From a virus, in IMG/VR virus record IMGVR_UViG_3300010157_000059, positions 1 to 64,000 of that record: 64,000 bases of DNA, one strand, 5' to 3'. The notes under the pieces are model-generated. The model saw only the letters and a program-made list of their open reading frames with translations, was not told where the DNA came from and did no database searches. A program made the translations under genes and the position numbers. Below, in pieces: positions 13,620 to 48,216 of this stretch. Every line of letters starts with the position of its first letter. Within the stretch, counting starts at the first letter, position 1.

Positions 13620-14282
13620 ATGTTAACATCCCCAGGTGGACCCGGAAGTGGCGGTAACGCTTCAGGCGCTTCCAGCGTAAACATTTTTCCTTTCAGTAGC
13701 GTAGCTACGGACCCAATCCGTAACTTTAGGTTCTTGGTAGAATTTCTACCTCATGACCAAACGTCGACTGCTAAGGTTAAATTTAAGAAGACTCTAGGCT
13801 TTACTAACGTGTCAGGTTTTGGCATGCAGGTAGACCCTATTGCCTATCGTGAAGGCGGATACAACACCGCTGTTCACCAGTTGCCAGGTCAGACCACTTT
13901 TGAGCCAATTAACTTTACAAGAGGTCAGACTCTAGGCAGCACCCAAAATAGCGACTGGATGCGTCAGTTGTTCTCGGTTATCTCAGGCCGCGCCCAAGCG
14001 GGTGCCGGACATGACTTCCGCTGTAACATTGATGTGTCGGTACTAAGTCATCCAAACCCTGCGGGTACCACTGCAGAAAATGGGGCAGCTGCTAAGAACC
14101 CATGGGAACTTCACGTTTCTATGCGTTTCCGTATCTACAATGCGTGGATTCAGAGACTGGTTTACGGCGATCTTCAGGCAGCAGGCAGCCTAATGGTTGA
14201 AGGCATGACAGTAGTACACGAAGGCTTTGACGTTAACTACGCTAACGATTACAAGACTTCAGCCGCAACATTCACGATCTAA
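13620..14282 (+). CDS. Tail tube protein, T4 gp19-like (220 aa)
   Basis: After a Gly/Ser-rich N-terminus comes the tube domain: DPIRNFRFLVEF, then TLGFTNVSGFGMQVDPIAYREGG, HQLPGQTTFEPINFTRG, and a C-terminal WELHVSMRFRIYNAWIQRLVYGDLQ...MVEGMTVVHEGFDV. This matches the gp19/tube family that stacks inside the sheath. Starts with TAAGGAGAATATACA as ribosome-binding site. Tube after sheath is the standard order. Confidence 0.92.
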   Translation: MLTSPGGPGSGGNASGASSVNIFPFSSVATDPIRNFRFLVEFLPHDQTSTAKVKFKKTLGFTNVSGFGMQVDPIAYREGGYNTAVHQLPGQTTFEPINFTRGQTLGSTQNSDWMRQLFSVISGRAQAGAGHDFRCNIDVSVLSHPNPAGTTAENGAAAKNPWELHVSMRFRIYNAWIQRLVYGDLQAAGSLMVEGMTVVHEGFDVNYANDYKTSAATFTI

Positions 14283-14307: not shown

Positions 14308-15156
14308 ATGTCAACTGAAACCGTAAGTGCACTCGATAACCCTGAACTAGCTGCACAGTTAGCTCAGGCCGCCATAGCAATGTCTAACTCCGTAGAGGAG
14401 GAGGAGACACAGGCTTCGCCTGTGGATGGTCCTGTAGAGATCACTCCTCCTCCTTCCGGAGATGTCAAGCTACTAGCGGGAATCTACAACTCCTTTAATG
14501 GGGAACTTGTAGATACCGCGGAAATCCGCGAACTGACTGGGGTAGATGAAGAAGCTATTGCAAAGATCAACGACTATGGTCGTAGTCTTATGGCAATTCT
14601 TGATCGTGCAACAGTCAAAATTGGAGAAGAAAAGGCAACCCCAGCAGTACTAGATCGTCTCCTAGCCGGAGATCGTGAATATTTAATTATTCAGATTCGA
14701 ATTGCTACTTTTGGAAATGAGCTTGCTCTAAAGGCCAAATGTGCAGATTGTAATGAAATTTACGATTTTACAATTGATTTGAATACTGATGTACCAATTA
14801 ATCGTTTTGAAGACCCAATCTCGGATAGATCAATTGTGGTTAATTGTAAGGTAGGCGAGGTACTTGTAGAGTTCCCTAATGGAGCTGTACAACGCAAGCT
14901 AATTAATCTTCAAGACCGTACTGCAGCCGAAATGGATACCGTACTTCTTAAAGAGTGCATCATTGAAATTAATGATCAGCCAGTAATTAGTGTGGATCAG
15001 GTTAAAAACTTGGGTATGCAAGATCGTCGTAAGATTTTAGCTGAACTCTCAGATAAAAACCCAGGACCAGATCTTTCCAAGTTGGTTAAAGATTGCCCTT
15101 CTTGTGGGCTGGAGGTACCACTTCCGCTTACCCTAGCGGATCTGTTTCTTCTTTAA
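14308..15156 (+). CDS. Zinc-binding tail assembly chaperone / baseplate-hub chaperone-like (282 aa, zero frame)
   Basis: Residues about 1-60 are acidic and disordered (EEEETQASPVDG, ITPPPSGD). A central helical domain follows. Two CxxC pairs (KCADCNEIYDF and DCPSCGLEVPLP) probably bind one zinc. This layout resembles T4 gp26/gp51-type hub assembly chaperones and tail chaperones placed between the tube and the tape-measure gene. The zero-frame reading ends CTT CTT TAA TAG. The +1 frame is open across this stop and continues for 52 codons, ending exactly at the tape-measure start, so a frameshifted longer form is likely (see next entries). Confidence 0.75.
   Translation: MSTETVSALDNPELAAQLAQAAIAMSNSVEEEETQASPVDGPVEITPPPSGDVKLLAGIYNSFNGELVDTAEIRELTGVDEEAIAKINDYGRSLMAILDRATVKIGEEKATPAVLDRLLAGDREYLIIQIRIATFGNELALKAKCADCNEIYDFTIDLNTDVPINRFEDPISDRSIVVNCKVGEVLVEFPNGAVQRKLINLQDRTAAEMDTVLLKECIIEINDQPVISVDQVKNLGMQDRRKILAELSDKNPGPDLSKLVKDCPSCGLEVPLPLTLADLFLL
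15151..15156 (+). other. Candidate +1 programmed frameshift site CTT-TAA
   Basis: The last sense codon CTT (15151-15153) is followed by TAA. A peptidyl-tRNA-Leu on CUU can re-pair one base forward on UUU, as in bacterial prfB (CUU UGA), while the stop codon pauses the ribosome. No strong Shine-Dalgarno-like stimulator is visible three bases upstream, so efficiency cannot be judged. Confidence 0.55.
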
Positions 15157-15313
15157 TAGAAAAGAACAATACGAGTACTTGTTATTTTCATATGAAATAA
15201 TAAGTAAGTATTTTCCCGGATGGGGCTTAATGGAAATTAAGTCTTTAAGCCGCCGGGAGAGGGAAATTTGGTTAAAGCTAGCTTTGCTTAGATTAGGACA
15301 TGGAGTTAAATAA
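15155..15313 (+). CDS. +1-frame extension of the tail chaperone (52 codons)
   Basis: Read in the +1 frame from 15155, the sequence is open for 52 codons and reaches TAA at 15311, which overlaps the tape-measure ATG (TAATG). It contains QYEYLLFSYEIISKYFPGW and SLSRREREIWLKLALLRL, an amphipathic helical design typical of the second domain of two-part tail chaperones. Joined to the zero frame it gives a product of about 334 residues. Alternative: a separate 27-aa peptide from ATG 15230 with weak GGGG upstream. The -1 frame closes at 15198, so only +1 fits. Confidence 0.55.
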   Translation, partial: NRKEQYEYLLFSYEIISKYFPGWGLMEIKSLSRREREIWLKLALLRLGHGVK

Positions 15314-18300
15314 TGGCACTCAATGAAAATTTGCCTAAAGCTACCTCCCCTAATAGCATGACGGCCCCTACCCGTCCATCTCAAGAAATTGAGCGTGTAG
15401 ACAAGCTGTACGACAGCATCCTAATGAAGGTTACAAAGATGGAGACATCTTTGAAAAAATCTGCTGAGTACATGCAACAGATGGGTGGGGGCAAAGATTC
15501 TAATGTAAATATTGGCTCAAATAGTAACGTTTTTAGTAAAGTAAATGACGTTACTAATGCCACTATGGAGCAACTTAATAAGATAGTTCCTCCTGGCGAA
15601 GGACCTTCTGGTTGGGACAGATTTAAAGCTGGGGTATCTAGCACTGCATACTATGCAGCTGCAATGATGCCTAATACTCTTGATGCAGTAACTCAAAGAA
15701 TTAGCACTCAGGGTGTTGCTTCTATGATTGGGCGAGATCCTAACGCTCTTATTCGCCAAAGCAACCAGTTGCTCAAAGGTGGCATGACTGGTCCTTACTC
15801 TGCCCAAACTTCTACAGCTATTCTAGCCAGCCAGGGCATTATCCCAACTATGGGTTCATACGGAAACATTATGAACCAAGTTGGTGGTCTAAGCGTCCTT
15901 ACCGGTATGAGCAATGAGCAAACAGCTTCGGGTATGGGCGGCATTAATGGCATGAACTTCCTAAGAATGGGAATTAATGCTCGTAATGCAAATGGGAGCT
16001 TAAGAGACCCTGCCTCTCTTTCTAGTGACCTTTACAAACGCATGTTTGGGGCCAAGAATATTACGGCTGAACAAGCTGCGCAGGTCTTTAATAGAAATTC
16101 CCGTTCTTACCAAGATATTGCTATGGCTGCCGGTGGCGACGAAAACTTGATGGCAACTCTTCAGAATACTATCTATTATCAAGCTAGAAATGGCGGGAAA
16201 AAACTAGATCTTAATGCTGAGAATGTTAAGAATAATATTCTTAAACTGCCTAAAGATGATCCTATGCGGGCTATGTACCACTACCAGGGCTCTGAAGCTA
16301 ACAAGCTGGAAGCAACTGGTACAGGTCTTGTAGGCGGCTACAGCGGTGCTTTGAACTCTACGGCAACTGTGAATGACCAATTTGCTAAACTTGCAAGAAT
16401 TCTACCAGCATTGACTACCGCATTTGGTAACCTAAAAGGATTCTTAGACACTTTACCTACTGCCGGTAATACTGGTGCCGCTATGTATGGGGGCATCTCC
16501 CAGGTTGCTCAAAAATTCCTTGATGGTAAGTCGGCGCAGTTTACATCTAAAGCTTTAGATAAACTCTTTGGAACAAACACCTCAGGGCAAGGACAGCCAG
16601 GAGTATCAAACCAGTTAGCAATAACATCAGGGCCAGGCCAACTGGCAATAACAGCAGGTCCACACCAGGCCGCAAATACTCCTATGGGAGCGGCTACAAA
16701 CGTTGCTAATCAACTTGCAGATAAAGGCCTACACGCTATGTGGGGCAAACTTACTGGTAAAGAAGGCCAAAGCAGCCTTATGCAAGATATTAAAAAATCT
16801 GGCGGTATGAAAGCATGGGGTAAAAACCTTTTTTCGGCAGTTAAAGATGCAACTGTAGGGTACGCAAAAGGTGGAGTTAAAGGCGCAGTTACGGCTGCCG
16901 CTAAAGATTTAGCACCTAAACTTGGACGAGCAGTAATGTCTGCAGGAGATGCTGCATTTGGGTACGGAGATCAAACTCAAACGGGTGGTTGGTCAAACCA
17001 AACCTCTATGCAGCCAATTGCAGGAGTTGCAGGACCTTATGAGCCTAGCGGACCTTCTCAGGGTAGTGCTATTCAGTATCCGGAGGATTACCCAGGGGCG
17101 TACCGAGGAGATCCTAACGACCCATCAAAAGTTACTTGGGTTCCCGGAAGTGTTCAAGACCCTGTAACAGGTAAATTTGTCAGTAACATGGAAGCTCGCA
17201 ATGCTTGGCTTGCCAGCCAAGGGCAAAAGCAGGGTGGAGACAGTGGGGGAGGCAGTAACACTCTTCTTGCACCAGGCAGTATGAAGAACCTCCTTACTAA
17301 AGGTCGATCCTTTATGAAAAGCCCAATGGGCAAAATGGCTGGAAGAGTTGCTTTAGGTGCGGCAACTGTTATGGCTACAAACTGGGCCGTGCCTAAACTT
17401 CGTGCATGGGGTGCCAAGCATGGTATTAAAGACCATAGTTTAAAAGATAATATAGGTACTACAGCGGCATACATGGGCGGATATGCTGCGGCTGGAGCAA
17501 TGGTAGCTGGGCCAGCTGGAGCAGTAGTAGGGGCTTTAGCAGGACTTGCTAGAGGTCTTTGGTATTCAACTCATAAACCTGAAAAAGAAGAAAAGCCTAA
17601 GAAAGTTAAGCATGATAGGTGGGGTCAAATTTATGACCCTGTTACTGGTAATGCACTACTACCTATTAACCAAACTACTGGTCAATTTGACTCAGACGAA
17701 TTTGATCGTACAGGGTATGGTCAAGCAAACCCAGACCTAAAGCGTTGGCAACAAGGTGGGTATCCAACCCCAAGTACTAGCTGGCTTAATGAAGGTAAGG
17801 GCTCCTCAGAGAGTAGCCTTACAAACATTATTAAAAAGGCAGGCTTTGGGCCACGTGCTACTGACATTGCTTATGCTGTTGCAATGGCGGAATCTGGCGG
17901 TAAAGCAACCGCGCACAATACTAATAAAAAAACTGGTGACAACTCATACGGGCTATTCCAAATTAATATGATTGGAGATATGGGCCCTAACCGACGTAAA
18001 CAATTCCACCTTAAGTCCAACGATGAACTACTTGACCCCTTAACAAATGCTAAGGCCGCTTACGCTATCTCTAATAAAGGAACAAATTGGAGTCCTTGGT
18101 CTACCTACAAGACTGGCGCATATAAAAAACATTTGCACAAGTCTGGGGCTAATGACAGCACAGACCTATCTAAGTTAAAAGCCAATCAAAACAATGAGAC
18201 TAAGTCAGATCTTCCACGTAATGCTCGTGAAGCTGCACAATGGGCTATTCAACAAGTTAAGAGTGGATCAAGTGGTTGGAATAATTACTGTGAAAGATTT

Positions 18301-19017
18301 ACAGAAACTGCTTGGGGTAAACCTGGCCGTTACAAGAGTGCACTTGCTGGATGGGAAGCGGCTAAAAAAGAAGGACGTGCTTACCAAGGTAAAACTCCTC
18401 CTCCAGGAGCTATGGTGTACTGGGGTGGAGGAGAGTATGGCCACGCCGCAGTCTCTATTGGCGGTGGAAAGATTGTGTCTACTGATATCAAGCGTAAGGG
18501 CAAAGCTGATATTGTAACTATTGACTACTTAACAAAGCAGTGGAGTAAACCATACCTTGGTTGGGCAGACCCAGATAAGGGTACAAAGCTAAATGCAAGC
18601 GCATCACCTATTGACCCTGGCAGCGTCAACACGGACACCTCGGTAATAAGCGCACAGCAACACGCAAATAATGGGGATAAACCTTGGTGGAAAGATCTTG
18701 CAAATAGCGTAGGTAATTTTTTTGGTAGCAATACCAATAATAATAATAGCGCTAGTAGCTCTAACAGCAGTTCTGGTAATGAGCTAGCCACACTTTTGAA
18801 TGTTACTGGTACTGGATTTAGTGTTAACTCAGCTTCAACCTCTGCGATGTTAGGTATGGGCAGTTCTCCAAGTATGAGCGGATCAGATGGCGGGATAACT
18901 ATCAATATGAATGTTAATATTGCAAGTGCAAGTACTGGGGATGCTCAAAGACTGGCACGTCAAGTTAAAGACATTCTTCAAAGAGAACTAAGAACAGATA
19001 GCATAAGGAATTACTAA
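15313..19017 (+). CDS. Tape-measure protein with lytic transglycosylase and CHAP/NlpC-like domains (1234 aa)
   Basis: The N-terminal 650 residues are long, Ala/Gly/Gln-rich and helical, as in tape measures. Residues about 675-735 are hydrophobic (RVALGAATVMATNWAVPKL, AAGAMVAGPAGAVVGALAGL). About 845-955 form a transglycosylase-like domain with AVAMAESGG (candidate catalytic Glu860) and NSYGLFQINMIGD. About 975-1090 form a cysteine-peptidase-like domain with candidate Cys993 (NNYCERFTETAWGK) and His1044 (GEYGHAAVSIGGG). The same domain stands alone at 41420-41836. The protein sets tail length and probably cuts the host wall during injection. TAATG overlap at the start. Confidence 0.85.
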   Translation: MALNENLPKATSPNSMTAPTRPSQEIERVDKLYDSILMKVTKMETSLKKSAEYMQQMGGGKDSNVNIGSNSNVFSKVNDVTNATMEQLNKIVPPGEGPSGWDRFKAGVSSTAYYAAAMMPNTLDAVTQRISTQGVASMIGRDPNALIRQSNQLLKGGMTGPYSAQTSTAILASQGIIPTMGSYGNIMNQVGGLSVLTGMSNEQTASGMGGINGMNFLRMGINARNANGSLRDPASLSSDLYKRMFGAKNITAEQAAQVFNRNSRSYQDIAMAAGGDENLMATLQNTIYYQARNGGKKLDLNAENVKNNILKLPKDDPMRAMYHYQGSEANKLEATGTGLVGGYSGALNSTATVNDQFAKLARILPALTTAFGNLKGFLDTLPTAGNTGAAMYGGISQVAQKFLDGKSAQFTSKALDKLFGTNTSGQGQPGVSNQLAITSGPGQLAITAGPHQAANTPMGAATNVANQLADKGLHAMWGKLTGKEGQSSLMQDIKKSGGMKAWGKNLFSAVKDATVGYAKGGVKGAVTAAAKDLAPKLGRAVMSAGDAAFGYGDQTQTGGWSNQTSMQPIAGVAGPYEPSGPSQGSAIQYPEDYPGAYRGDPNDPSKVTWVPGSVQDPVTGKFVSNMEARNAWLASQGQKQGGDSGGGSNTLLAPGSMKNLLTKGRSFMKSPMGKMAGRVALGAATVMATNWAVPKLRAWGAKHGIKDHSLKDNIGTTAAYMGGYAAAGAMVAGPAGAVVGALAGLARGLWYSTHKPEKEEKPKKVKHDRWGQIYDPVTGNALLPINQTTGQFDSDEFDRTGYGQANPDLKRWQQGGYPTPSTSWLNEGKGSSESSLTNIIKKAGFGPRATDIAYAVAMAESGGKATAHNTNKKTGDNSYGLFQINMIGDMGPNRRKQFHLKSNDELLDPLTNAKAAYAISNKGTNWSPWSTYKTGAYKKHLHKSGANDSTDLSKLKANQNNETKSDLPRNAREAAQWAIQQVKSGSSGWNNYCERFTETAWGKPGRYKSALAGWEAAKKEGRAYQGKTPPPGAMVYWGGGEYGHAAVSIGGGKIVSTDIKRKGKADIVTIDYLTKQWSKPYLGWADPDKGTKLNASASPIDPGSVNTDTSVISAQQHANNGDKPWWKDLANSVGNFFGSNTNNNNSASSSNSSSGNELATLLNVTGTGFSVNSASTSAMLGMGSSPSMSGSDGGITINMNVNIASASTGDAQRLARQVKDILQRELRTDSIRNY

Positions 19018-48139: not shown

Positions 48140-48211
48140 GGCATAGTAGTCCAAGTTAGAGACCGCCTATACAACGGAGGGAATGTGCAGGTTCAAGTCC
48201 TGCCTATGCCA
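48140..48211 (+). ncRNA. tRNA-like element (possible degenerate tRNA)
   Basis: The ends look exactly like a tRNA: a perfect 7-bp acceptor stem (48140-48146 with 48204-48210), a perfect 5-bp T stem (48187-48191 with 48199-48203) with a TTCAAGT loop, TA at positions 8-9 and a following A. The middle does not fit: the D stem has three pairs (GTC/GAC) with no GG in its loop, and the anticodon stem has mismatches or an eight- or nine-base loop. No CCA is encoded. So it is either a decayed tRNA, an atypical tRNA, or a tRNA mimic. A terminator follows within six bases, so it is likely transcribed. Confidence 0.55.
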
Positions 48212-48216
48212 CTCAG

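Follow-up and report, generated by a model that had tools for sequence, protein, structure and literature searches.

The locus described here raises the question of how, and at which codon, the gene for a tail assembly chaperone could be read in two frames. It lies in a window of 64,000 nucleotides (nt), which is the stretch analysed as a whole and comprises positions 1 to 64,000 of the 72-kb IMG/VR virus record IMGVR_UViG_3300010157_000059. In this window, a gene encoding a T4 gp26-like chaperone of 282 amino acids with two CxxC pairs extends from 14308 to 15156 (plus strand, as are all the features of this locus placed below). Its zero frame ends GAT CTG TTT CTT CTT TAA, with the stop at 15154-15156. 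The +1 frame, already open upstream of this stop, continues for 52 codons past it and closes with a TAA at 15311-15313, at the start of the tape measure gene, and the -1 frame is closed after 15 codons. The end of the zero frame, the open +1 frame and the early closure of the -1 frame had been described in the original prediction, made from the letters of the window, and they were confirmed. The same prediction had placed a programmed +1 frameshift at CUU-UAA. Comparison with related viruses supported a +1 shift in the tail chaperone and did not support that slip site, since an upstream UUU followed by a pyrimidine is fixed and the codon before the stop is variable. A programmed +1 frameshift in this gp26-like gene is by far the best reading of the locus, and we consider it highly probable on the sequence comparisons that follow.

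Relatives were taken from IMG/VR (12 loci, then 80 kept of 531), from GTDB genomes (7) and from phage records, namely those of Streptomyces phages BRock, GiJojo, LuckySocke, Alone3 and pSt2308. The main set contained 104 loci with 78 different junctions, grouped into 42 lineages that share less than 80% amino-acid identity. A distant hit, L103 (Sulfidibacter), was rejected as a comparable relative because it was too distant and lacked the conserved extension, and it was left out of the main set together with a Firmicutes-phage branch. In all the 104 loci the +1 frame was open for 42-76 codons and encoded the same domain, and the -1 frame closed within 27 codons. The consensus of this extension was xxExxYxxLxxxYxxLSxxYPGWSLxEIRxLSxRERxxWL, in which W, E and R were invariant. 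For the +1 frame, three pairs of near relatives gave ratios of nonsynonymous to synonymous substitution rates (dN/dS) of 0.07, 0.04 and 0.03; the corresponding ratio of proportions (pN/pS) was 0.16 over 158 pairs. In the window, the extension (15149-15313) amounts to 54 residues plus the stop and was modelled by AlphaFold2 as three helices, with a mean predicted local distance difference test score (pLDDT) of 87. An open frame of 52 codons is not improbable by itself; what raises the extension above chance is that the same frame and the same protein are found in every relative, with dN/dS of 0.03-0.07. By this comparative evidence, the extension is a real coding region under strong purifying selection.

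The position of the shift was indicated by the phenylalanine of the sequence LADLF (F280), which was invariant and was encoded by TTT in 42/42 lineages. The base after this TTT was C in 39 lineages, that of the window included, and T in the other three. In some counts the TTT had been found by walking back from the stop, and the printed codons confirmed the aligned invariant Phe in every row; in a TTT/TTC count free of that assumption, the single TTC was an extra downstream Phe in L100. With the lineages treated as independent, the probability of finding TTT throughout was about 1e-12 from the Phe codon usage of each locus, and the nine lineages of higher guanine plus cytosine (GC) content, in which TTT makes up only 4-29% of the Phe codons, gave P of about 4e-8 by themselves as the product of the per-locus figures. 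Furthermore, these chaperone genes have 145 further TTT codons, and not one of them is followed by CG. The codon that would occupy the A site after UUU was CGN in 29/42 lineages and CAG/CAA, CTC, CTT, CCG or a stop in the remaining ones. It was a sense codon in 39/42 lineages, so that the A site need not hold a stop. In the window this codon is CUU, and consequently the window itself does not carry the CGN of the UUU_CGN class. The distance from UUU to the stop ranged from 0 to 3 codons, and the codon before the stop was CTT, CTA, TTA, GTT, GAG, GAA, GAC, CAA, TCA, GCA, CGT, CGC, CTC or CTG, among others. A tree of 78 sequences, built with the motif left out, required at least 26 changes of the pre-stop codon, 17 of the stop codon and 8 of the distance from UUU to the stop; the Phe codon stayed UUU followed by C or U throughout. 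Because UUU_Y is invariant where the pre-stop codon varies, and because UUU-CG occurs at no other TTT codon, the predicted shift was placed at 15145-15148 (P-site codon TTT, next base C). As judged from these alignments, the conserved slip site is UUU followed by a pyrimidine, usually UUU_CGN, and not CUU-UAA.

The phenylalanine tRNA (anticodon GAA) pairs with UUU and is also able to pair with the triplet one base forward, be it UUC or UUU. In the mechanism that we propose, normal termination at 15154-15156 would give the short tail assembly chaperone and programmed +1 frameshifting would give a minor long form. With the UUU of 15145-15147 in the P site, the tRNA would be able to re-pair one base forward on UUC, and would presumably do so in a fraction of the passages, aided by slow decoding of the A-site codon (CGN in most relatives, CUU here). 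After the slip, reading would continue as ...LADLF-FFNRKEQ... to the TAA that overlaps the tape measure start. By analogy with lambda G/GT, the short form would coat the tape measure and a few long forms would recruit tail-tube subunits through the three-helix domain. The peptide LADLFLF-NRKEQ, which had been suggested for detecting the fusion by mass spectrometry, was mis-spelled; a shift on UUU_C would give LADLF-FFNRKEQ, and one on CUU_U would give LADLFLL-NRKEQ.

Two elements upstream of the slip site are candidate stimulators of the shift. A scan for complementarity to the 3' end of 16S rRNA identified GGAGGT, a perfect Shine-Dalgarno sequence, within the chaperone gene at 15111-15116, 28 nt before the slip codon. 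It was present in 37/42 lineages versus 4.8 expected under synonymous recoding (maximum 12 in 2000). The amino acids encoded there (E-V) were conserved and so was the DNA, with GAG at 33/33 Glu codons of the low-GC set. Between this sequence and the slip site there is likely a hairpin, as indicated by stem enrichment: a stem of 5 base pairs (bp), CCGCU-6 nt-AGCGG, occurred in 26/42 lineages versus 0.3 expected from synonymous recoding, and in 40/42 lineages there was either the CCGCU/AGCGG stem, of 4 pairs or more, or a CCA/UGG form of it in a shifted position. In the window the hairpin has 6 bp (TCCGCT-TACCCT-AGCGGA, 15123-15140). RNAalifold favoured a weak GGAGG-CCGCU pairing over the hairpin. 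If the hairpin forms, it would take up 16-18 nt and bring GGAGGU to about 10-12 nt from UUU, compared with 28 nt in the unfolded RNA. Whether GGAGGU and the hairpin stimulate the shift we judge to be evenly balanced. Downstream of the slip site, the RNA at 15154-15265 is predicted to be well structured in the window (z about -5 over 111 nt); across lineages the structure was modest, with a mean z of -1.3 versus -0.5 for a control stretch.

The same stretch could be explained in another way, in which GGAGGT, the hairpin and the T-rich stretch (15111-15150) form an intrinsic terminator or an RNA-processing signal that limits the tape measure mRNA, and the shift on UUU_Y proceeds unaided. In the window, the hairpin followed by TCTGTTTCTT indeed scored as terminator-like. 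However, the T run is absent after the hairpin in most relatives (e.g., GATTTGTTTCGC), and a perfect GGAGGT would be left unexplained, so we consider this possibility unlikely, although it is the one that survives best among the alternatives.

A prfB-like shift, in which the ribosome would slip on CUU while UAA occupies the A site, with CUU either as the only slip site or as a back-up to UUU_C, is less probable still. CUU_U is the most efficient bacterial +1 site known before a stop (PMC5009743), and CTT is the last sense codon in several lineages of the subclade of the window (L001, L005, L017, L019 and L025). Nevertheless, it is confined to that subclade: other lineages have GAG, CAA, CGT, CGC, TCA or CTC before the stop and share the +1 extension all the same, and the many changes of this codon on the tree have been given above. 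The original prediction had compared the site with that of prfB and had asked for CTT-TAA to be checked in relatives together with the +1 open reading frame (ORF); the ORF was conserved and CTT-TAA was not. The likeness to prfB was not borne out by the spacing either, the strong Shine-Dalgarno sequence lying 28 nt upstream and not about 3. The CTT TAA of the window (15151-15156) would thus be at most a secondary slip site. What the locus shares with prfB (release factor 2) is a bacterial +1 shift and a GGA-like element (the hairpin's 3' arm) whose distance to UUU is close to that in prfB. It differs in having UUU instead of CUU, no need of a stop in the A site and its GGAGGU at the greater distance.

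We assign the protein to the tail assembly chaperones of the T4 gp26/gp51 family. The chaperone encoded at 14308-15156 matched PF12322 (T4_baseplate) with 44.8 bits, the curated cut-off being 24.5 (E 1.5e-11), as well as phrog_150, and the cysteines of its two CxxC pairs (C145/C148 and C263/C266) were invariant in the first alignment. The AlphaFold2 model of the short form had a pLDDT of 88. T4 gp26 and gp51 are both PF12322 proteins (E 9e-64 and 4e-52, respectively), and gp51 has an in-frame extension, its match to phrog_150 reaching position 280 where that of gp26 reaches only 235. No +1 ORF was found in T4 gene 26. Joining the two frames of the window lengthened the phrog_150 match from 225 to 274, with no lengthening in two other lineages tested, which gives modest sequence support for a gp51-like long form. 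In T4, two paralogous genes lead to the same pair of forms, gp26 being the short one and gp51 the long one, extended in frame.

The downstream ORF could instead be a separate small gene, translated through reinitiation or coupling behind the stop of the gp26-like gene. Separate downstream coding sequences (CDSs) are annotated publicly in BRock, GiJojo, LuckySocke and SP-15, and phage LR756511 has the extension domain in the -1 frame with its own ATG overlapping the chaperone stop. But the annotated starts are TTG or ATG codons within the domain, which remove its first helix or more, and no downstream CDS is annotated in pSt2308 and LIS04. In a survey of 43 sequences, 37 had no ATG, GTG or TTG in the interval that separates the preceding +1-frame stop from the domain, and 42 had no start supported by a Shine-Dalgarno sequence before the central Trp of the domain. 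Relatives with a start of their own had been named as what would refute the frameshift, and the survey upheld the claim that the extension is not an independent gene. Moreover, neither the frame nor the slip motif would need to be conserved in a separate gene, and the extension of T4 gp51 is fused in frame. Such a gene is therefore very improbable, and in the public records of these phages the C-terminal domain of the chaperone is missing or given a wrong start. Finally, a -2 shift, by which phage Mu gets to the same frame (PMC5009743), or transcriptional slippage is the least probable of all, since NUN UUU C offers no plausible -2 re-pairing and the homopolymers at the window site have at most 3 bases, a fourth T occurring only in lineages with UUU directly before the stop.

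Some observations weigh against the frameshift as proposed here. Before a stop, UUU_U is less shifty than CUU_U in Escherichia coli (PMC5009743), and CGN codons are not especially rare in these chaperone genes, so that rarity would hardly explain slow decoding at the A site. No in-column compensatory change was found in the hairpin across the alignment, and its shifted form has few independent origins on the tree. As to the protein, the PDB fold that the short form matched best was that of the HK97 tail assembly chaperone 2ob9 (probability 0.94, TMt 0.51; 3klu was also listed), which would fit a tail chaperone, but the match had an E of 0.15, and the similarity between the extension and the tail of gp51 was not significant by single-template hhalign.

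Beyond the main set, +1-frame extensions were also found in the distant gp26-like genes of SP-15, LIS04, one IMG/VR relative and Streptococcus phage GXN1; in three of them the TTT is followed by C, and in LIS04 the next base is T or A. Among relatives in Bacillus, Listeria and Streptococcus phages (L016, L105, L106 and L115), the +1 extension was conserved and the slip site was ambiguous between TTT-Y and a nearby NCC-CGA. The gp26-like genes of Rhizobium phage Y68, Agrobacterium phage Atu_ph07 and Sinorhizobium phage Phosso (L116, L117 and L118, respectively) have FF or FL near their end, at TTT TTC or TTT TTG, and a stretch resembling the C-domain of the chaperone is open in their -1 frame, entirely unannotated in Atu_ph07. 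This suggests that these three phages use -1 frameshifts. The PRFect paper (PMC10885494), citing earlier work, describes some T4-like phages with one short and one longer fused chaperone gene in place of frameshifting. From these sequences, the same long form is apparently reached through +1 shift, -1 shift and duplication, and several routes would be expected if the long form were functionally required.

Frameshifted tail chaperones are general in phages, mostly by -1 shifts, and T4 is an exception (PMC5009743). As in lambda G/GT and its relatives (TAC-N/TAC-NC), the gene studied here is located between those of the tail tube and the tape measure and would give a short form and, by frameshifting, a long one that ends in a small additional domain. 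It differs in the +1 direction of the shift instead of the usual -1, in the use of UUU_Y and not a heptamer, and in the larger gp26-like protein with its two CxxC pairs. T4 gp26/gp51 belong to the same Pfam family and also comprise a short and a long form, the extension of gp51 having a similar SL..I..m...ER pattern, but there two paralogous genes without frameshift do what one gene with a +1 shift would do here.

To our knowledge, few natural bacterial +1 shifts are known (prfB and some Listeria phage genes). Those of the Listeria phages PSA, A118 and A500 (PMC5009743) are likewise in phage structural genes, but in major capsid or tail proteins, and the PSA site involves a proline codon before a stop or a pseudoknot. 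With respect to the slip motif, UUU_CGU is an experimentally mapped +1 site, that of influenza A PA-X (PMC3498833), and UUU_CGN is prevalent in plant amalgaviruses (PMC5052127). These have in common with most lineages of the present family UUU in the P site, C as the next base and CGN in the A site. There the ribosomes are eukaryotic, whereas here they are bacterial, a strong Shine-Dalgarno sequence lies upstream and the A site is sometimes CUU, CAR, CUC, CCG or a stop. The TTT-CGC motif in a tail chaperone is already known from the HF1 group of haloarchaeal viruses, for which a +1 shift has been proposed in six genomes (PMC7230728). In agreement with that proposal, the chaperone of Halorubrum phage HF2 (L113, 50001-77672) ends AAG TTT CGC AGA TAG and is followed by an open +1 ORF. 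Slip motif, gene position and +1 extension are alike in both groups, and in both the shift is a prediction only; the HF1-group hosts are archaeal and no split Shine-Dalgarno sequence is reported there. Because the chaperone sequences have no evident resemblance, the shared TTT CGC motif is likely convergent.

The arrangement of GGAGGU and hairpin resembles the split ribosome-binding site of T4 gene 25, in which a hairpin reduces the spacing from 27 to 11 nt (PMC3014915). In T4 too, the Shine-Dalgarno sequence is at the 3' end of the gp26 gene and is followed by a hairpin and then the target codon, and a GAGG-hairpin-ATG is visible at the 3' end of T4 gene 26. The target in T4 is an AUG start, in contrast to a slip codon in this family, where the lack of a +1-frame start before the domain has been described above. 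Since the T4 arrangement arose within the T-even phages, according to a review (PMC3014915), the likeness would likely be convergent. We found a split Shine-Dalgarno arrangement described for no frameshift. As far as open papers reach, the novelty lies in this arrangement, in the bacterial T4-gp26 family and in how deeply the site is conserved. The complete proposal, a bacterial sense-codon +1 shift (UUU_CGN) stimulated by a Shine-Dalgarno sequence that hairpin folding brings to about 10-12 nt from the slip codon, in a chaperone family whose long form is obtained in different phage lineages through a +1 shift, a -1 shift or duplication of the gene, has in our opinion an even chance of being right.

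The chaperone gene is preceded by that of a T4 gp19-like tail tube protein (13620-14282; PF06841, E 9e-19; phrog_4542, E 1e-24) and followed by that of a tape measure protein (15313-19017) with SLT lysozyme-like (PF18896, E 1e-23) and CHAP-like domains. The order tail tube, chaperone, tape measure is the same in BRock, GiJojo, LuckySocke, LIS04 and SP-15. A promoter search of the region found none. The +1-frame stop overlaps the tape measure ATG as TAATG (15311-15315), with GGAG just upstream, and frameshifted ribosomes could re-start there, which would couple the long chaperone form to tape measure synthesis. Elsewhere in the window, ARAGORN identified one tRNA (48140-48212), called Cys with anticodon aca; this anticodon is odd and the tRNA may be mis-called.

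The reading proposed here, a programmed +1 frameshift on UUU_Y, ties the T4 exception, with its two genes gp26 and gp51, to the general rule of frameshifting in tail chaperones. It would also provide a natural bacterial system for testing UUU_Y slippage, with cultured Streptomyces phages among the relatives. The conservation of a +1 site across a large actinophage-like virus family, with the motif found in influenza and amalgaviruses, suggests that UUU_Y slippage works across domains of life.
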